Assembly: GCA_947450025.1 (NCBI GenBank)
Contig: CANFTW010000007.1
Location: 1-64,000 of the forward strand
From: Bacteroidota bacterium
GTDB taxonomy: Bacteria; Bacteroidota; Bacteroidia; B-17B0; Aurantibacillaceae
Length of the DNA: 64,000 nucleotides
Direction of reading: 5' to 3'
Below, piece after piece: positions 192-9,287 of the stretch (positions within the stretch are counted from its first letter, which is position 1; each line of letters opens with the position of its first letter). The notes under the pieces are model-generated. The model made no database searches, was not told where the DNA came from, and saw only the letters and a program-made list of their open reading frames with translations. A program made the position numbers and the translations under genes.

Positions 192-219
192 TTGTCTTCA
201 GAATTACTCTTTATATTTG
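192..219 (+). promoter_or_regulatory. Bacteroidota-type promoter for the DUF2271 gene
   Basis: TTG at 192-194 is followed after 17 bases by TATATTTG at 212-219, matching the -33/-7 consensus of the primary sigma factor of this phylum. The predicted transcript start near 225 leaves a leader of about 20 bases before the ATG at 247. Confidence 0.65.
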
Positions 220-246: not shown

Positions 247-1074
247 ATGAAAAAACTTTTATCTAAACTTACTATTTTATCGTTAGGAATTTTCTTTTCA
301 ACGACTGGTTCAGCTCAAACAACAGGTGTGTTAACATTTACATTTACTGAAGTTCCAGTAGCCACAGCTTCTACATATCAAAGTACAGGAAAACATGATT
401 TGGCAGTTTGGATTCAAACAAGTGCAGGAGCTTTTGTGAAAACAAAATTACGTTATGCAGGTGGTGGAACAAGCGATCATTTACCAACATGGGCATCTCA
501 AGCATCATGTACAGGGGGTAGTTGTATATCAGCAGGCTGTAATACAGTAGATGGAACAACTGGAGCTACTCAGAGTTCTTTTAAAACTTATACAGTATCT
601 TGGGATGGAAAAAAAGGTGCAGCTGCAACAGGCACAGTTCAGCCTGATGGCGTTTATAAAGTAACAATTCAATCAACGTGGAATCATGGAACTGGTGGTA
701 CAGCAACTACTTCATATACTTTCACAAAAGGCCCAACTGTTGATGATCAAGCACCTGCTAATACTACAAATTTTAGTAATGTTGTTTTGCATTGGCAACC
801 AACAGGAACAGTAGGAATTGATGAAACAGCTTCTAATCCTACTATTTCAGTTGCACCAAATCCTTCAAATGGAATATTTAACGTTGATTTTAAAAACGCA
901 AACAGTATTAAAGTATTTAATGCTTTAGGTGTTTTAGTGTACGACGAAAAAATTGAACAAGCAACTGAAGGAACTAAAGCAGTTGATTTATCAAGCTTCT
1001 CGGATGGTATTTATTTTATTAATGTATCTAATGGAAAAGGATCTATTAATCATAAAATTATTTTAAATAAATAA
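247..1074 (+). CDS. T9SS-exported DUF2271 domain protein, likely flavinylated
   Basis: Secreted protein of 275 residues. Residues 1-23 form a signal peptide ending SAQ. Residues about 25-190 resemble DUF2271, including the late DG-x-YKV stretch. The last 80 residues are a T9SS sorting domain (APNPSNGIFNVDF, then DGIYFINVSNG). Residues 102-111 read DGTTGATQSS, which matches the [S/T]GATx[S/T] motif where ApbE attaches FMN by a phosphoester bond; Thr108 would be the acceptor. Three cysteines (88, 93, 98) sit just before this motif. DUF2271 proteins are known neighbours of ApbE and flavin-based redox proteins, and apbE lies convergent 66 bp downstream. The inference is an extracellular or cell-surface flavoprotein in electron transfer. 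The T9SS tail is clear; the DUF2271 assignment rests on motif and context. Confidence 0.8.
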   Translation: MKKLLSKLTILSLGIFFSTTGSAQTTGVLTFTFTEVPVATASTYQSTGKHDLAVWIQTSAGAFVKTKLRYAGGGTSDHLPTWASQASCTGGSCISAGCNTVDGTTGATQSSFKTYTVSWDGKKGAAATGTVQPDGVYKVTIQSTWNHGTGGTATTSYTFTKGPTVDDQAPANTTNFSNVVLHWQPTGTVGIDETASNPTISVAPNPSNGIFNVDFKNANSIKVFNALGVLVYDEKIEQATEGTKAVDLSSFSDGIYFINVSNGKGSINHKIILNK

Positions 1075-1090
1075 TTTTATGATTTTAAAT

Positions 1091-1123
1091 AAAAAAAAGG
1101 TTAGCGTTAGCTAACCTTTTTTT
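1091..1123. terminator. Bidirectional terminator
   Basis: The stem GGTTAGC (1099-1105) pairs with GCTAACC (1110-1116) around a 4-base loop. It is flanked by an A tract before and a T tract after, so it can end both the DUF2271 gene (+) and apbE (-), which converge here. Confidence 0.85.
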
Positions 1124-1140
1124 ATGCTCTTAAGCTTCGT

Positions 1141-2145
1141 TTATTCTTTTTCAGAAACAAGAGTTGATATGCCAGGCGTTTCATAAATTTGATAATTGCC
1201 TTGATCATCAGAATAAATTAAATAAGCTTGTAGTTCAGGATGATTCTTTAAAAATTCCTTAGCTTTCTCAAGTCCCATTACTAAAATGCCTGTTGCATTA
1301 GCATCTGATGAAATACATTCTTTCGAAAAAACGGAGGCGCTTAATAAATTATTTTTGGTTGGATAACCTGTTTTGGGATCAAGATGGTGATGATATTTTA
1401 TGCCGTCTTCTAAAATAAATCGTCTGTAATTTCCAGAAGTTGCTACCGCTAAATTTTCGAGTTTAACAATTGCTTTAAAATCATTTGTTCCTTCTTTATT
1501 GTCGATTGGTTTTTCAATACCTATTTTCCAGTTATCGCCATTTGGTTTTTTGTTTTTTGCAAATACTTCGCCACCAATTTCAACGATATAGGATTTTATA
1601 CCTTTTGAATTCAAAAAATTAGAGACTACATCAACAGAGTAACCTTGTGCAAAGGCATTAAAATCTAAAGCAACTCGCGGGTCTTTTTTAATTATTTTAT
1701 GACCTTTTAAGCTAATTAAATCAAATCCTACAAATTGAAGAATACTGTCAATTTTTGATTTTTCAATTTTTTGTTTCTTTCCTGGTCCAAATCCCCATGC
1801 GTTAACTAATGGGTAAACTGTGGGATCAAAGGCTCCGTTAGTATTTTTCCAAACTTCTTTAGCTTTATTGAAACAGGTAATAAAATACTGATCAACGACC
1901 ACTTTTTTATCATTAGCATTTATCCTTGAAATAATAGAATTAGGAATATAGGTTGATACCGATTTATCAAAATCTGCAAGTATTTTTTCTATTTCTGGCT
2001 GTAAATCTCGATTTAAAGAATCAAAATAAGTAATGTGATAGGTTGTTCCTTGAGCAAACCCCTCAAGTTTAATAGGTTCATCTTGTGCTGTTAAAAATGA
2101 ACATAAAGAGATTGTAAAACAAAGTGTGCTTATTATTTTTTTCAT
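1141..2145 (-). CDS. apbE: FAD:protein FMN transferase ApbE
   Basis: Transfers FMN from FAD to a threonine or serine of exported target proteins. The chosen start gives 334 residues beginning MKKIIST, so that a signal peptide (1-20, ending TAQ) sits at the N-terminus; an in-frame ATG 12 codons earlier would bury it. Family motifs occur in order: DFNAFAQGYSVD (161-172), VEIGGEV (188-194), VATSGNYRRF (234-243), HLDPKTGYP (254-262) and SSDANATGILVMG (279-291, the Mg-binding region). No lipobox cysteine follows the signal, so the enzyme is probably a soluble periplasmic protein. The neighbouring convergent gene at 247-1074 encodes a probable substrate. Confidence 0.95.
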   Translation of the reverse strand: MKKIISTLCFTISLCSFLTAQDEPIKLEGFAQGTTYHITYFDSLNRDLQPEIEKILADFDKSVSTYIPNSIISRINANDKKVVVDQYFITCFNKAKEVWKNTNGAFDPTVYPLVNAWGFGPGKKQKIEKSKIDSILQFVGFDLISLKGHKIIKKDPRVALDFNAFAQGYSVDVVSNFLNSKGIKSYIVEIGGEVFAKNKKPNGDNWKIGIEKPIDNKEGTNDFKAIVKLENLAVATSGNYRRFILEDGIKYHHHLDPKTGYPTKNNLLSASVFSKECISSDANATGILVMGLEKAKEFLKNHPELQAYLIYSDDQGNYQIYETPGISTLVSEKE

Positions 2146-2350: not shown

Positions 2351-3184
2351 TTGAATACCGAAAAAGTAATAATTGACCCCACTTTGAGTTCTTTCCTTTC
2401 TATTAAGGATGTGCTTCGATATAAGAGTTTACTTAATAATCTTGCTAAACGAGACTTTTTGGTTCGTTATAAGCAAGCTTTTGCTGGTATTATGTGGGCA
2501 TTAGTAAAGCCTTTAATTAATATTATTGTTTTTGGGTACCTCTCTAGTAAAATTAATAATACAACCAATACCACAACCAATTTTCTATATGTAGCTTCTG
2601 CAATGTTATTATGGCAGTTGTTTTCAAATGTGTTTAACGACGTCAGTAACTCCATAATCGGAAACTCTAATTTGTTCTCAAAGGTATATTTCCCGAAAAT
2701 TATTATTCCATTAAGTACCATTTTAGTATGCATGGTTGATTTTTTAATTTCATTATTAATTTTAGTGGTTTTATTTATTATTTCTGGCCAACAAATTCAT
2801 TGGCAAATTATTTTAGCGCCTTTTTTTATAGCATTAACTTTAATAAATGGCTTCGGGATTGGACTATATTTTGCCACTATTAATGTAAAATATAGAGACG
2901 TGAAATTTATTGTGCCTGTTATTTTACAAATTGGAATGTTTGTTAGCCCTGTTATTTTACCGACTTTAAAATATTTAGGCCCGCTTCCTGAATGGTTACG
3001 ATGTGTTTTTTGTTTAAACCCAATGGTTGGAGCTATTGATGGTTTTAAATATGCTTTGTTTGGAGGAGATGCTGTTTATAATATCTATTATTTTGTGTTA
3101 TCAATATGCGTTTCTATTTTATTTCTGTTTATAGGAGTGAAGTACTTTTATAAATTTGAACGTAATTTTGTAGATTATATCTAG
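2351..3184 (+). CDS. wzm: ABC-2 type polysaccharide export permease (Wzm-like)
   Basis: Membrane subunit that exports a finished lipid-linked polysaccharide across the inner membrane. The 277-residue protein has a cytoplasmic start with the family motif RDFLVRYKQAFAGIMWALVK (34-53), then about six membrane segments, including one around the conserved region FIVPVILQIGMFVSPVILP. The start codon is TTG; no ATG lies upstream in frame. The stop shares one base with the GTG start of the ATPase gene, so the two subunits are probably translationally coupled. Length and topology are typical of Wzm/TagG/RfbD proteins. Confidence 0.92.
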   Translation: MNTEKVIIDPTLSSFLSIKDVLRYKSLLNNLAKRDFLVRYKQAFAGIMWALVKPLINIIVFGYLSSKINNTTNTTTNFLYVASAMLLWQLFSNVFNDVSNSIIGNSNLFSKVYFPKIIIPLSTILVCMVDFLISLLILVVLFIISGQQIHWQIILAPFFIALTLINGFGIGLYFATINVKYRDVKFIVPVILQIGMFVSPVILPTLKYLGPLPEWLRCVFCLNPMVGAIDGFKYALFGGDAVYNIYYFVLSICVSILFLFIGVKYFYKFERNFVDYI

Positions 3185-4440
3185 TGGGTAAAAATACTGT
3201 TATAAAAGTTGAACATTTAACTAAGCAATATTTGCTTAATAAAAGTCTATTACCTAAAAGTGATACGCTTTATGGTAGTTTTTTAAATGGATTACGGCAT
3301 GTCAAAAACCTTTCTCAAAAACAACAAAAAGAAGAGTTTTTGGCACTTCAAGATGTTTCTTTTGAAATAGAACGTGGCGATAGGGTAGGGATAATTGGAA
3401 GAAATGGAGCAGGAAAATCTACTTTATTAAAAATATTATCTCGAATTACACCACCAACAAAAGGAAGGATTGAGTATACAGGCAGGATGGCCTCTTTATT
3501 AGAGGTTGGCACTGGCTTTCATGGAGATTTATCGGGTAGAGAAAATATTTATTTAAACGGATCTATTTTAGGCATGAATAAACATGAAATAGATCGAAAG
3601 TTTGATGAAATAGTAGCCTTTAGCGAAATCGAAAAATTTATTGATACTCCAGTGAAACGATATAGCAGTGGGATGTATGTTCGGTTGGCTTTTGCAGTTG
3701 CTGCTCACCTTGAGCCAGATATTTTAATTGTAGATGAAGTGTTAGCTGTTGGAGATGCTGCTTTTCAAAAAAAATGTTTGGGTAAAATGAAAGATGTGTC
3801 AAGTAGTGGACGTACTATTTTATTTGTTAGCCATCAAATGTCGGCTATTCAAAATCTTTGTGATAAATGCCTATATCTAAAAAATGGTAAAGTTGTTGAT
3901 TTTGGTGTTTCGGAAAAAATTATCCCTCAATATTTGCTTTCTTCTCAGGCACTTAATTCAATCGTTTTATCTGATTTAGTTGATCGTTCTGGAAATGGAA
4001 TACTAAAGTTTTTGTCTATTAAATATAAAGATGGGAATGGCTCAGTCATTACAAGTGCTATTGCAGGTTCAAGTTTAAATATTGAGTTTGAGATTTTATC
4101 ATCTGCCTCATCTGTTTTATCAAATATTAATATTACTGTTGGAATTGATGATGAACATGCCCAAAGAATTACACAATTAAATAATAACAATACCAATCAG
4201 ATTTTTAATCAGGTATTGCCAGGTGTGTTTAAAGTTCATATTAACATACCTGTTTTGCCATTTAAAGGTGGAAGGTATACTATATCTTTATTCGCATCTG
4301 TTAATGGAGACATTGCTGATTGGATTCAAGAAGCTACCGTTTTAGATATTGAAAGTGGCGATTTTTTCAAAACTGGAAGATTGCCAGATGAAGGGCAAGG
4401 AAGTGTTTATGTTGACCATAATTTTTCTTTACTTAGCTAA
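3184..4440 (+). CDS. wzt: ABC polysaccharide export ATPase with C-terminal carbohydrate-binding domain (Wzt-like)
   Basis: Energises export with the Wzm-like permease just upstream. Walker A GRNGAGKST is at 72-80, followed by signature YSSGMYVRLAFA, Walker B ILIVDEVLAVGD and the H-loop FVSHQM. After about residue 250 comes a 150-residue beta-rich extension of the Wzt C-terminal type, which in known systems binds the modified non-reducing end of the chain before export. Start is GTG, overlapping the previous stop by one base. The extension implies a capped polymer; a candidate capping methyltransferase is encoded at 6280-7098. Confidence 0.93.
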   Translation: MGKNTVIKVEHLTKQYLLNKSLLPKSDTLYGSFLNGLRHVKNLSQKQQKEEFLALQDVSFEIERGDRVGIIGRNGAGKSTLLKILSRITPPTKGRIEYTGRMASLLEVGTGFHGDLSGRENIYLNGSILGMNKHEIDRKFDEIVAFSEIEKFIDTPVKRYSSGMYVRLAFAVAAHLEPDILIVDEVLAVGDAAFQKKCLGKMKDVSSSGRTILFVSHQMSAIQNLCDKCLYLKNGKVVDFGVSEKIIPQYLLSSQALNSIVLSDLVDRSGNGILKFLSIKYKDGNGSVITSAIAGSSLNIEFEILSSASSVLSNINITVGIDDEHAQRITQLNNNNTNQIFNQVLPGVFKVHINIPVLPFKGGRYTISLFASVNGDIADWIQEATVLDIESGDFFKTGRLPDEGQGSVYVDHNFSLLS

Positions 4441-4488
4441 TTATCAATAATATATTTATCAATTTGATGAATTATTTTATTATACCTC

Positions 4489-5211
4489 ATGATACAGAAA
4501 ATAATAAATAGAATCAAAAATATTGCTAATCGGTTTAATTTTTCTAATAATCAAATATTAGGAACATTTATAAAAAAGGAAAATGTAACCTTAAGTAATG
4601 TTGAAATTAAATTAGGCGTTAAAGCAAAACTCACTTTATTAGAAGGTGTTAAAATTCATAATTATAAAATTGTTATTGAAGAGGGTGAATTAATTATAGG
4701 TGAAAACACTATTCTTGAGCAAGGTAATAGCAGTTTAATTCCTTCTATTTATATTAGTTCTGGAAAATTAGAGATAGGTCATCATAATGTTATTAAAGCT
4801 GAATTTTGTATCAGATTCGAAGGGCATTGTACTATTGGTAATTATAATTGCTTAAATGAATTAACAGAAGTTAGATGTGATGAAAGAATAGATATTGGAG
4901 ATTTTAATTTAATTTCATATGAATGTATGATTTATGATACAAATACTCATTGCATCTATCCTCCAATTCAGAGACGAAAAATAACAACTCAGGACTTCCC
5001 TGCAATAGGCATTGAACGCGAAAAACCAATGACTAAACCTATTATTATCGGAAATGATTGTTGGATTGGGAAAAGAGCTGTTGTTTTAAAAGGATGCATC
5101 ATTGGAAACGAAGCAATATTATCGGCATGTAGCGTCGTTACAAAATCAGTTCCCGCTCATCATATGGCGTATGGTAATCCGGCCCTAATAAAATCAAAAG
5201 TTAATTCATAA
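4489..5211 (+). CDS. Left-handed beta-helix acyltransferase
   Basis: A 240-residue protein with hexapeptide repeats throughout (for example IVIEEGELIIGENTILEQG, then IGNYNCLNELTEV). The C-terminal third carries the classical transferase stretch IIIGNDCWIGKRAVVLKGC followed by SVPAHHMAYGNPA. Such enzymes O- or N-acylate sugars with acyl-CoA. The N-terminal half is weaker in repeats than usual and lacks a recognisable nucleotide-sugar domain, so the acceptor is unknown. It lies 48 bp after wzt and 9 bp before the next glycosyltransferase, inside the operon. Confidence 0.82.
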   Translation: MIQKIINRIKNIANRFNFSNNQILGTFIKKENVTLSNVEIKLGVKAKLTLLEGVKIHNYKIVIEEGELIIGENTILEQGNSSLIPSIYISSGKLEIGHHNVIKAEFCIRFEGHCTIGNYNCLNELTEVRCDERIDIGDFNLISYECMIYDTNTHCIYPPIQRRKITTQDFPAIGIEREKPMTKPIIIGNDCWIGKRAVVLKGCIIGNEAILSACSVVTKSVPAHHMAYGNPALIKSKVNS

Positions 5212-5220
5212 ACTCTATTT

Positions 5221-6144
5221 ATGAGGACTTTAGCACCTATCATATTATTTGTTTTCAATAGACCTGAGCATACTAGAAAAACATTGTTAAGTCTTAAAGA
5301 AAATGAATTAGCAAAAGATTCCTTATTGATTATATATGTAGATGGACTTAAATTTAACTCTACCGAAGAACAAAAGGAGAGGAATGAGGCTGTGAAAAAA
5401 GTTATTCGAGAAGAGGTTTGGTGTAAAGAAGTCGTCATTATTGAATCAGAAAATAATAAAGGCTTAGCTAAATCTATTGTTGATGGCGTTACGGAAAATG
5501 TTAGGAAATATGGGAAAGTTATTGTTTTGGAGGATGATTTAATTACTGATAGATTTTTTTTGAAATTCATGAATGATGGTTTGGATATGTATGAATTTGA
5601 AGATAGTGTAGCTTGTATTTCGGGCTATATTTATCCTGTAAAAAACATATTACCAAATACATTTTTTATAAAAGGAGCCGATTGCTGGGGATGGGCTACG
5701 TGGGAAAGATCTTGGAATTTATATGATGATAATGGGTCTCGTTTATTAGAGCAATTAGAGGATAAAAAGCTCTCATTTGATTTTAATTTTTTTAATTCTT
5801 ATCCATATATTGATATGCTAAAGGATCAAATAGATAAGAAAAATAATTCATGGGCAATTTTGTGGTATGCATCAGCATATTTGAGAAATAAATTAACACT
5901 TTATCCTGGGAAATCATTAATACAAAATATTGGAATTGATGGTTCTGGTATTCATAGTGGAGAATCAAATTTGTTTGACGTTGAAATTTTAAATCAGGAA
6001 GTGATTCTTGAAAAAATCCCAGTACTAGAAAATGTTTCTGCGAAAAAAAATATTTCTGAATATTTTCATGTCATTTTTAAAGTTAATAAAGTTACTTTTT
6101 TAAAACGGATTTATTCAAAGCTCATATCTAAGTTTATAAGCTAA
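5221..6144 (+). CDS. Glycosyltransferase, GT-A fold
   Basis: The 307-residue protein starts with APIILFVFNRPEHTRKTLLS, typical of a GT2/GNT-I-like family found in capsule loci. The metal-binding acidic motif is VIVLEDDL (about 100-107). The acceptor-side motif GADCWGWATWERSWNLYD is strongly conserved in the family. No membrane segment is visible. It probably adds one sugar in the repeat unit of the locus; donor and linkage cannot be read from the sequence. Confidence 0.85.
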   Translation: MRTLAPIILFVFNRPEHTRKTLLSLKENELAKDSLLIIYVDGLKFNSTEEQKERNEAVKKVIREEVWCKEVVIIESENNKGLAKSIVDGVTENVRKYGKVIVLEDDLITDRFFLKFMNDGLDMYEFEDSVACISGYIYPVKNILPNTFFIKGADCWGWATWERSWNLYDDNGSRLLEQLEDKKLSFDFNFFNSYPYIDMLKDQIDKKNNSWAILWYASAYLRNKLTLYPGKSLIQNIGIDGSGIHSGESNLFDVEILNQEVILEKIPVLENVSAKKNISEYFHVIFKVNKVTFLKRIYSKLISKFIS

Positions 6145-6279
6145 ATCACGCTATATGTATCGTATATATTAATCATTTCTTCATTTTTTTTTTTAAATTT
6201 ACCCAACATTAATTATTTAAAACATTTCTTATTTAATCATGAGATGATTTATTAAATACTAAATTGAAAAATTATTATT

Positions 6280-7098
6280 TTGAAAAATATTATTAAATTT
6301 CTTGTTCCAGATTTCATTCTTAAGAAATATCATGCATATAGATATACTAAAAATGATGCCTATGGATGGAGTGGTGATTATTCATCTTGGCAAGAGGTAA
6401 TGAATATTTCAACTGGTTATAATGCTGATGAAATTTTTAATAGAGTTGATAAGGGATTAACAGAAGTTATTAATGGCCGCGCAGCATTTGAAAGAGATAG
6501 CGTGGCATTTAAAGAATTAATTTATAGTGAAGATTTACTTAAATTATTTAAAACTATTTCAAATGAGCATCATAACCATTTACGTTTAATTGATTTTGGA
6601 GGTGCTTTAGGAAGTATTTATTACCAATATAGAAAGTTGTTATCTGGTGTAGTAATTAATTGGTCAGTGGTTGAGCAAGGTGAATTTGTTAGAATTGGCA
6701 TTCAGAAATATAGTAATCAGGAAATTAATTTTTTTTATACAATTGACGAAGCTTTAAATTCAGGAAAGCAAGATGTTTTATTTATGTCTTCGGTATTGGC
6801 CTATTTACCTGATCCTGAAAGTTTTTTAAAGCAGATGATAGAGTACAAAATTAAATATATTGTTTTATATCGAACGGCATTTGTGCAAAGAGAAAAGCCA
6901 CTTTTAACATTACAGCAGGTCCCTCCAGAGTTTTATAATGCATCGTATCCTGCATGGTTTTTTAACGAAAAAAAAATCAAATCTATTTTGGAGCAATATT
7001 ATACAATGGTAGATAGCTTTGATGGAGATATAGAAACCACCTTAAAGGTTGGTAAAAATGATTGCTATTGGAAATGTTTAGTTTTTAAATTAAAATAA
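6280..7098 (+). CDS. Putative methyltransferase, TIGR04325/LIC12133 family
   Basis: A 272-residue protein whose N-terminal half has the family hallmark YGWSGDYSSWQEV, STGYNA and a later GRAAFERDSVAF. The SAM-binding region follows as LRLIDFGGALGSIYYQYR (about 100-117). Members are found in surface polysaccharide loci of Leptospira and Bacteroidota. TTG is the start codon. The stop overlaps the ATG of the next gene by one base. A role in O-methylating the glycan, perhaps as the terminal cap read by the Wzt C-terminal domain, is an inference from context. Confidence 0.8.
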   Translation: MKNIIKFLVPDFILKKYHAYRYTKNDAYGWSGDYSSWQEVMNISTGYNADEIFNRVDKGLTEVINGRAAFERDSVAFKELIYSEDLLKLFKTISNEHHNHLRLIDFGGALGSIYYQYRKLLSGVVINWSVVEQGEFVRIGIQKYSNQEINFFYTIDEALNSGKQDVLFMSSVLAYLPDPESFLKQMIEYKIKYIVLYRTAFVQREKPLLTLQQVPPEFYNASYPAWFFNEKKIKSILEQYYTMVDSFDGDIETTLKVGKNDCYWKCLVFKLK

Positions 7099-8141
7099 TG
7101 AAATTAAATTTTGTAACACTTTTTAATTCAAGCTACTTAACCAGAGGATTGGTTCTTTATGAGTCATTATTAAAACATTGTCCAGATTTTCATTTATACG
7201 TCGTAGCATTTGATGATGTTACTTACAACTATTTTCAATTAAATCCTCATAAAAACCTAACGGCTATTTCATTGAGTCAGTTTGAGGATGAAAAGTTATT
7301 ATCGGTAAAGTCTTCTCGGTCATCTGGTGAATATTGTTGGACATGCACCGCATCAACTATATTATATTGTATTAATACTTACCAATTAAATCACTGCGTT
7401 TATATTGATGCGGATATGTGTTTTTATTCAAATCCTCAATCTTTGTTTGACGAATGGGGTGATAAATCAGTATTAATTACCGAACATCGTTATACTCCTG
7501 AATATGATCATTGTGAAGAAAGTGGCATTTATTGTGTTCAATTTGTTGGATTTAAAAATGATGTTGATGGTATTACAGCCCTGAAATATTGGAGGGAATC
7601 TTGTATTAATTGGTGTTATGCTAGAGTGGAAGATGGCAAATTTGGAGATCAGAAATATTTAGATGATTGGACGACTCGATTTAATAACGTTCATGTGTTG
7701 AATCATTTAGGTGGTGGCATAGCTCCTTGGAATATTCAGCAATATGAATTTAAGATTGATAAAAAGAATGTGTTTGGTATAGAAAAACGAACTGGTAATA
7801 AATTTGAACTTGTTTTTATTCATTTTCATGGCCTAAAGTTTTATGATAACAATATCGTTTCTATAGCTCCATCCGAATATGAGTTAGAAAAATATCTAAT
7901 TACTTTGTTTTTTAAACCTTATGTTGGTTTATTAATGAGTCAGAAAAGTCGTATTTTTAAGACAGATTCAAGTTTTAACCCAAATGGTTCAGCAGGCAAA
8001 GCACCTTATAAAAGGTTGAATTTCAGAGCCATTAAAGAATATTATATAGAAGGTATTAAAAATAGTAGACGTAACATATTGGGAATGTACTTAATAAAAA
8101 AAATTAAACATCATTATTTTTTTAACGCATTAGATTTATAA
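7098..8141 (+). CDS. Glycosyltransferase, GT8-like nucleotide-sugar transferase
   Basis: The 347-residue protein begins MKLNFVTLFNSSYLTRGLVL, a GT-A nucleotide-binding start, and has the DxD motif in VYIDADMCFYSNP (about 97-109). Downstream features GGGIAPWNI and FIHFHGLKF resemble the conserved histidine-containing end of related putative glycosyltransferases. It is coupled to the methyltransferase gene by a TAATG overlap. Sugar specificity is unknown. Confidence 0.78.
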   Translation: MKLNFVTLFNSSYLTRGLVLYESLLKHCPDFHLYVVAFDDVTYNYFQLNPHKNLTAISLSQFEDEKLLSVKSSRSSGEYCWTCTASTILYCINTYQLNHCVYIDADMCFYSNPQSLFDEWGDKSVLITEHRYTPEYDHCEESGIYCVQFVGFKNDVDGITALKYWRESCINWCYARVEDGKFGDQKYLDDWTTRFNNVHVLNHLGGGIAPWNIQQYEFKIDKKNVFGIEKRTGNKFELVFIHFHGLKFYDNNIVSIAPSEYELEKYLITLFFKPYVGLLMSQKSRIFKTDSSFNPNGSAGKAPYKRLNFRAIKEYYIEGIKNSRRNILGMYLIKKIKHHYFFNALDL

Positions 8142-8201
8142 TAAAGATAATACGATTGAAGTATAAATTAGAATAACAAAAACAGGATAATTTCTTATAA
8201 A

Positions 8202-9287
8202 ATGATTGAATACGAGAACTTAAATAATTTGAATAAACCATTATTTGAAGAATATAAAACAGCCTTTAATGAAGTATTAGAAAGTGGTTGGTATGTTTTA
8301 GGTAATAAAGTTAAAGAATTTGAAAATCAATTTGCGAGTTATTGCAATACCTTACATTGTGTAGGTGTGGCAAATGGGTTGGATGCTTTGAATTTATCTT
8401 TACGTGCTTTTGGATTCGAACGTGGTAGCGAGGTTTTAGTTCCATCAAATACATATATAGCAACCATTTTATCCATCGTTGATAATGGCTTACAACCTGT
8501 ATTAGTTGAACCAAATATTCATACGTATAATATTGATCCTGAATTGTTAGAACAAGCAATTACATCAAAAACTAAAGCCATTATGGTGGTGCATTTGTAT
8601 GGCAAGGTTTGCGAGATGGACCCTATTTTATCAATTGCTAAAAAACATAATTTAAAGGTTATTGAAGATTGTGCTCAATCTCATGGAGCAAAGTATAAAG
8701 GTCATTTATCTGGCAGTTTTGGAGATTACGCAGCCCATAGTTTTTATCCAACTAAAAATTTAGGAGCATTAGGCGATGCGGGTGCCGTTACAACTAATTC
8801 AGATGATTTAGCCAAAAAAATTAGAATTTTAAGAAATTATGGTTCTGAAGTAAAATATTATAATGACGTTGTTGGGGTTAATTCAAGATTAGATGAATTA
8901 CAAGCAGCTTTATTACTAGTTAAATTGAAATACATGGAACAAATTACATTGCATAAACGTGAATTAGCTTCTGTTTATGTAAATGGATTGAAATCTGATT
9001 TCATTAAACCTCAGATTCATAAAGATTATTATGATGTGTTTCATATTTTTAATATTAGACATTCTAAAAGAGATGCGTTAAGAGATTATTTATTGAAACA
9101 TGATATAAAAACAGAAATTCATTATCCTTTAGCTCCTAACAAGCAAAAAGCAATGATTGGAATACTCGATAAACAGAATACGCCAATTGCAGAAGAAATT
9201 CATCAAACAACACTAAGCCTTCCTATTTCCTATTTTCACACCAAAGAAACTATTCAAAAGGTAGTGGATGTTATGAATTCATTTTAA
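8202..9287 (+). CDS. DegT/DnrJ/EryC1/StrS-family sugar aminotransferase
   Basis: PLP-dependent transaminase of a nucleotide-linked keto sugar, 361 residues. The PLP lysine lies in [17 protein letters not shown] and the cofactor aspartate in [11 protein letters not shown]. The opening [15 protein letters not shown] is typical of the FdtB/QdtB branch that makes dTDP-3-amino sugars, but no FdtA-type ketoisomerase was seen nearby, so the exact product is open. It begins a run of genes that continues with a glycosyltransferase one base after its stop. Confidence 0.9.

Follow-up and report, generated by a model that had tools for sequence, protein, structure and literature searches.

A T9SS-tailed, DUF2271-like protein encoded beside apbE in a Bacteroidota genome is a putative covalent flavoprotein

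ApbE attaches a flavin (vitamin B2) to proteins that are known from membranes, from the periplasm and, in Gram-positive bacteria, from the cell envelope. The closest described systems include DUF2271 proteins; in the one from Amantichitinum, the cognate ApbE adds the flavin to the motif Thr of [S/T]GA[S/T], and a PepSY membrane protein is frequent in classical DUF2271 clusters (accessible part of PMC8238504). In Pfam, DUF2271 is predicted to be periplasmic. The ApbE motif comprises seven residues, D-x-x-[S/T]-G-A-[S/T], of which the Asp is called strictly conserved in the part of PMC12052999 that was accessible. Among the literature matches listed, which were mostly open-access main texts taken without their supplements, no T9SS cargo is described as ApbE-flavinylated; the main text of PMC8238504 mentions neither 'type IX' nor 'Bacteroidetes', PMC11334425 does not mention 'secretion', and the accessible part of PMC9331221 yields a citation only, with no such T9SS flavoprotein described.

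The locus studied here (Table 1) lies at the beginning of the window, by which we mean the whole 64,000-nucleotide stretch of DNA analysed; this stretch opens contig 7 of the source genome, which is 3.2 Mb in size and 99.96% complete. As the initial annotation had claimed, the gene at 247-1074 on the plus strand encodes a product of 275 aa that reads DGTTGATQSS at residues 102-111; a signal peptide of about residues 1-23 was likewise read by eye, and the claimed T9SS tail was recovered by two profiles, Por_Secre_tail at residues 204-272 (54.3 bits, cut-off 27, Pfam) and the T9SS type A domain (46 bits, cut-off 23, NCBIfam). The convergent neighbour, with its ATG at 2145, proved to be apbE as proposed, since its product matched PF02424 over profile positions 2-266 of 266 (282 bits, E 6.2e-84); it also resembles the solved ApbE 6nxi (E 6.2e-54) and is the only ApbE match in the source genome. 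The two genes have 66 bp between their ends, and the suggestion that they share one terminator stood in part: the hairpin located there is bordered by A and T runs on either side and has an RNA z-score of -4.55, with 0/200 shuffles folding as well, whereas a simple terminator scan listed no site. We regard this hairpin as a plausible terminator for both genes. Upstream, TATATTTG fits TAnnTTTG, which we take to be the Bacteroidota promoter element, and is one of five plus-strand matches to that consensus in the first 2400 bases. Beyond apbE, positions 2351-9287 of the window read as a pair of polysaccharide ABC exporter genes with others for sugar handling; such polysaccharide could relate to the anchoring of T9SS cargo.

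Table 1. Coordinates of the features of the locus in the window
Feature	Position	Strand	Basis
Promoter-like element TATATTTG	212..219	+	Consensus match only, 27 bp upstream of the flavoprotein ATG
Flavoprotein gene (275-aa, T9SS-type, DUF2271-like, putative covalent flavoprotein)	247..1074	+	ORF with ATG start, and profile matches
Sec signal peptide, residues about 1-23 (...STTGSA/QTT)	247..315	+	By eye from sequence
Conserved beta-sandwich domain, residues 23-185, divergent DUF2271	313..801	+	Alignments, AlphaFold2, Pfam on homologues
ApbE recognition motif DGTTGAT, residues 102-108; putative acceptor Thr108, codon 568-570	550..570	+	Alignment and published motif (PMC12052999)
T9SS type A C-terminal sorting domain, residues 204-272	856..1062	+	PF18962, TIGR04183
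Bidirectional terminator-like hairpin common to both convergent genes	1092..1123	.	RNA folding z-score
apbE, FAD:protein FMN transferase; N-terminal signal sequence by eye; ApbE domain 1219-2049	1141..2145	-	PF02424

The search for the T9SS translocon in the source genome was made with SprA, and SprA_N matched twice within an open frame of 2471 aa (C7:84831-89573) on the same contig as the window. The AlphaFold2 model of the conserved domain had a pLDDT of 96.1 and a pTM of 0.91, and its secondary-structure string places Thr108 in a turn between short strands. Foldseek with this model against solved structures returned nothing at E<=0.001, the best entries of a second structural look were a C2 domain (Z 7.3) and FlgD (Z 6.2), and a flavoprotein appeared as a clear structural match in neither list. 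The sequence profile of the domain also matched FlgD over part of its length (E 1.2e-4), which we read as a sandwich fold in common; overall, the fold resembles general Ig/C2-like sandwiches, with no confident match. A viral or phage origin was rejected, as no relative was encoded at any of the 21 places where the patterns matched viral contigs, and there was no PHROG match.

The sequence DGTTGAT fits the published motif. When the Thr/Ser-rich window protein was shuffled, [ST]GA[ST] arose in 13% of shuffles and D..[ST]GA[ST] in 0.6%, so that the motif letters alone are weak proof, the bare core being that frequent; conservation and apbE linkage across homologues do more. In a set of 17 aligned homologous domains, Thr108 and Gly106 were invariant and Ala107 was present in 16/17. 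A scan of a genome collection retained the best 80 of 83 relatives, at 79 loci, and the window protein together with 79 homologue domains from these best 80 of 83 formed the conservation alignment (n=80). The relatives come from Bacteroidota taxa, apart from two 'uncultured bacterium' records (L112 and L125), and include homologues in Flavobacterium alvei HR-AY, F. silvisoli RD-2-33, F. gelidilacus DSM 15343, F. aciduliphilum DSM 25663 and Kaistella gelatinilytica G5-32. Since the patterns that fetched the homologue loci lie outside the motif, its conservation is not built in. Position 106 was G in 79/80 and position 107 was A in 65/80, and position 108 was T in 74/80 and S in 3/80 (T or S in 77/80); the reading would have been undermined by a Thr108 that varied among homologues, and this was not what the alignment gave. 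The Asp position, by contrast, held D in 48/80, G in 26/80 and S in 6/80, and this counts against flavinylation, given that the accessible part of PMC12052999 calls the Asp strictly conserved.

A DUF2271 domain had been expected in the N-terminal part of the protein, and this expectation held for the family, though not for the window protein itself. The latter had no match to DUF2271 (PF10029) at E<=1, and a search of the source genome with PF10029 gave nothing at E<=0.001, whereas 53/80 family members matched at E<=0.01 (27/80 did not), the best at 3.9e-12. With the cut-off at 27.3 bits, L052 and L063 passed at 31.1, while L054, the nearest homologue (73% identical in the domain), fell short at 23.3; among nine members scanned singly, five were below the cut-off and two (L084 and L129) had no match. 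A profile-profile comparison of the family with four classical DUF2271 sequences only was weak (E 0.0082, probability 4.8%) and aligned motif on motif. A PF10029 search in 149 genomes of the class returned eight matches (L046-L053). Three of these, L051-L053, are members of the T9SS-tailed family, with the tail recognized by Pfam in L052 and L053 and by eye in L051, while L046-L049 are short classical DUF2271 proteins; a likely PepSY gene adjoins L046-L048 (by sequence) and a profile-confirmed PepSY gene adjoins L049. As Por_Secre_tail was found in 76/80 family members (Pfam) and DUF2271 matched 53/80, the family appears to be a divergent, T9SS-directed branch of DUF2271. The window protein is below profile detection, and we do not file it as a profile-level DUF2271 member. 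The domain also heads proteins of 509-1063 aa at L055, L057, L061, L066, L104 and L126 (L104 being cut by the contig end), and PKD and Ig-like domains or repeats, as in a stalk or adhesin, are present among family members (Pfam).

We then related the motif to the presence of apbE, which was no more than 2 kb from the domain at 56/79 loci; 53 of these had it downstream, in the convergent arrangement of the window. With L131 left out, 71 of the other 78 loci could be judged: apbE was near 49/61 loci with GA[ST] and 6/10 without it, which was not significant (p 0.22), and 12 judgeable copies with the GA[ST] motif had no apbE within 2 kb. Six apbE-adjacent copies read TGST, TGTT or TGGT, with S, T or G for Ala and the Thr kept, while the four that had neither apbE nor GA[ST] (L113, L121, L129 and L132) had lost the core. 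Under a looser grouping by core kept or lost, chosen after seeing the data, apbE was near 55/67 loci versus 0/4 (p 0.0019). In a tree that, like the model, derives from a domain alignment made without L073 and L100, these four group with L110 and L122 as the six paralogues of a single clade (support 100/99). The clade has lost the core in five copies and has TGSS in L110, it retains the scaffold residues, and no apbE was seen nearby (L110 and L122 could not be judged); because the motif-less copies sit in one clade, they perhaps reflect a single event. This clade is a natural control set. L131:9692-10477 is an apbE-adjacent homologue on a long branch with no canonical motif, and its product may use another acceptor site. 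At L103:12103-12969, Flavobacterium alvei has a second paralogue across apbE, with an SGAT motif and, by eye, a T9SS-like tail, and apbE there thus lies between two likely substrates.

Co-occurrence was evaluated in 100 related genomes, 61 of the window's family and 39 outside it, which were searched for the flavoprotein domain with the domain alignment. Within the family, the domain was found in 11 genomes, apbE in 11 and both in 10 (Fisher p 1.3e-9); G018 has a fragment of 22 residues where a contig ends, and counting this as a twelfth gave p 7.8e-9; both values are optimistic because the genomes are related. The exceptions were G025, with apbE only, and G001 and G018, with only a fusion and only the fragment, respectively, and no apbE found; in G007, apbE is on another contig and has an internal stop. 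G012 and G017 each have a single apbE alongside one fusion and one stand-alone copy, and one ApbE could therefore serve both. The apbE of G025 (L138, G025:C42) is like that of the window, in a genome with neither this flavoprotein nor FMN_bind.

FMN_bind was absent from all 61 genomes of the family (0/61). Outside the family, apbE was present in 19/39 genomes and FMN_bind in 15/39, all 15 within the 19; the genomes with apbE and without FMN_bind were G061, G063, G071 and G081, of which G063 has the flavoprotein. The source genome had no FMN_bind, DUF2271 or DUF3570 match in a search confined to these types. Within that scope, we rejected an FMN_bind protein of the NqrC/RnfG type as the reason for apbE (0 in the source genome and 0/61 in the family) and, likewise, DUF3570 as the ApbE substrate. 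PepSY_TM (PF03929) was found neither in the source genome nor in the 11 same-family genomes with the flavoprotein, and tblastn with one PepSY query placed no PepSY near the flavoprotein (0/79 loci).

To look for redox partners, we searched within 4 kb of the domain by tblastn, and found DUF5777 at 30/79 loci, YceI at 20/79 and heme-motif lipoproteins at 19/79, with any of them at 31/79, all of which are lower bounds because few queries were used. In four Flavobacterium isolates and Kaistella, the gene order was DUF5777, a CxxCH protein, YceI, flavoprotein and apbE, with apbE convergent in the four Flavobacterium isolates and on the same strand in Kaistella. In the source genome, the DUF5777/heme/YceI group is on contig 9 (L137) and not with the flavoprotein; its members are DUF5777 (276 bits), YceI (40 bits) and a pair of small proteins containing spaced C...CH motifs, of which one has a sub-threshold cytochrome match and the other none. 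DUF5777 matches occurred in 90/100 relatives, with or without the flavoprotein. A dependence of the flavoprotein on this group was rejected on these grounds, and since DUF5777 is elsewhere in the source genome and widespread, the group is a candidate partner only, the link being suggestive and not exclusive. The heme-motif lipoprotein, DUF5777 barrel and YceI group is nonetheless the best candidate partner of the flavoprotein. The first 111 positions of the window encode the C-terminal part of a TPR-repeat protein that is truncated where the contig begins. At 28/79 loci, the flavoprotein has such a TPR gene within 3 kb, and the TPR protein may therefore be a further partner.

Judging from the sequence, it is probable that ApbE puts FMN on Thr108 in the periplasm and that T9SS then exports the protein, giving a surface flavoprotein with an electron-carrying FMN. 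The 275-aa protein would reach the periplasm through its signal peptide, its N-terminal beta-sandwich, a divergent DUF2271 domain, would fold there, and the neighbouring periplasmic ApbE would transfer FMN from FAD to Thr108 in DGTTGAT, a step that we assume to precede export. T9SS takes cargo already folded in the periplasm. It would recognize the sorting domain, so that the protein, folded and bearing its flavin, would pass through the outer membrane and reach the surface or medium, and there its bound FMN would serve as an electron carrier. We infer the FMN-Thr108 bond, the order of the steps, the export and the redox role, the last being less certain than flavinylation and export. The proposal of a flavinylated, T9SS-exported protein, already made in the initial annotation, gains support from the conservation of Thr108 and from the DUF2271 matches of the family.

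Two alternatives concern the substrate and its destination. ApbE might act on a different, unrecognised protein, with TGAT present in the T9SS protein by chance or for folding. The bare core in 13% of shuffles, the presence of apbE without the flavoprotein in G025, the substrate types such as NqrB/RnfD that lie outside the present search and the existence of genomes with orphan apbE (accessible part of PMC8238504) would all fit this explanation, but the co-occurrence of 10/11 both ways in 61 genomes, the adjacency of apbE at 56/79 loci, the conservation of the motif within a DUF2271-like domain and the clade that keeps the scaffold, drops the motif and has no apbE seen near it make it improbable. 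It is very improbable that the protein is flavinylated yet retained in the periplasm like classical DUF2271 proteins, considering the sorting tail in 76/80 members, the SprA gene in the source genome and the lack of PepSY_TM there and in the 11 genomes of the family that have the protein, even though Pfam predicts a periplasmic location for DUF2271 and the classical members L046-L049 adjoin PepSY-type genes.

A third alternative accepts flavinylation and export but denies electron transfer outside the cell, the flavin being structural, serving an adhesin-like or sensing function, or taking part in a local enzyme reaction. We consider this possible, although not likely. The long proteins headed by the domain at six loci, with PKD and Ig-like domains as in surface stalks, the lack of a dedicated donor (no PepSY_TM in the source genome or in the 11 same-family genomes) and a fold like general Ig/C2-like sandwiches, with no confident match, are in agreement with it. 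Conversely, the characterised ApbE-modified proteins are described as electron carriers (accessible parts of PMC8238504 and PMC12052999), and heme-motif lipoprotein, DUF5777 or YceI genes occur within 4 kb at 31/79 loci. For the surface flavoprotein with an electron-carrying FMN, we can sketch, tentatively and with considerable doubt, an electron route at the outer surface of Bacteroidota in which small heme lipoproteins, YceI and a DUF5777 barrel in the outer membrane would pass electrons to a T9SS-displayed, covalent-FMN protein without a PepSY or FMN_bind (NqrC/RnfG) partner. Such a route, on an equally doubtful footing, might be a flavin-based counterpart of outer-membrane cytochrome conduits.

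If the preferred reading of a flavinylated and exported protein is true, the Bacteroidota surface would receive, via T9SS, a permanent redox group loaded in the periplasm, which could give these bacteria an unrecognised means of moving electrons outside the cell. It would also help to account for some of the 'orphan' apbE genes of genomes that lack FMN_bind substrates, and the predicted flavoprotein bears on whether T9SS carries cofactor-loaded cargo.

In comparison with known systems, the window protein resembles T9SS type A cargo in its signal peptide (by eye) and Por_Secre_tail. It shares the ApbE motif D-x-x-[S/T]-G-A-[S/T] with the NqrC/RnfG FMN_bind proteins, but has no FMN_bind match, in a family where FMN_bind is missing from all 61 genomes. 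The Listeria extracellular electron transfer proteins (accessible parts of PMC9973259 and PMC12052999) are similar in being ApbE-like flavinylated and outside the cytosol, while their system, unlike that of the window, is Gram-positive and has no T9SS. The closest likeness is to the DUF2271 ApbE substrates of PepSY-like systems (PMC8238504, accessible part), with which the family has in common the profile matches (53/80), the [S/T]GA[S/T] acceptor and the apbE neighbour. It differs from them in its T9SS tail, the lack of PepSY_TM and the convergent two-gene layout, and the sorting tail points to probable export and not to periplasmic retention as in classical DUF2271. Because DUF2271 substrates of ApbE have been published (PMC8238504, accessible part), it is not flavinylation but the T9SS export, together with the missing PepSY partner, that would be new in this system.
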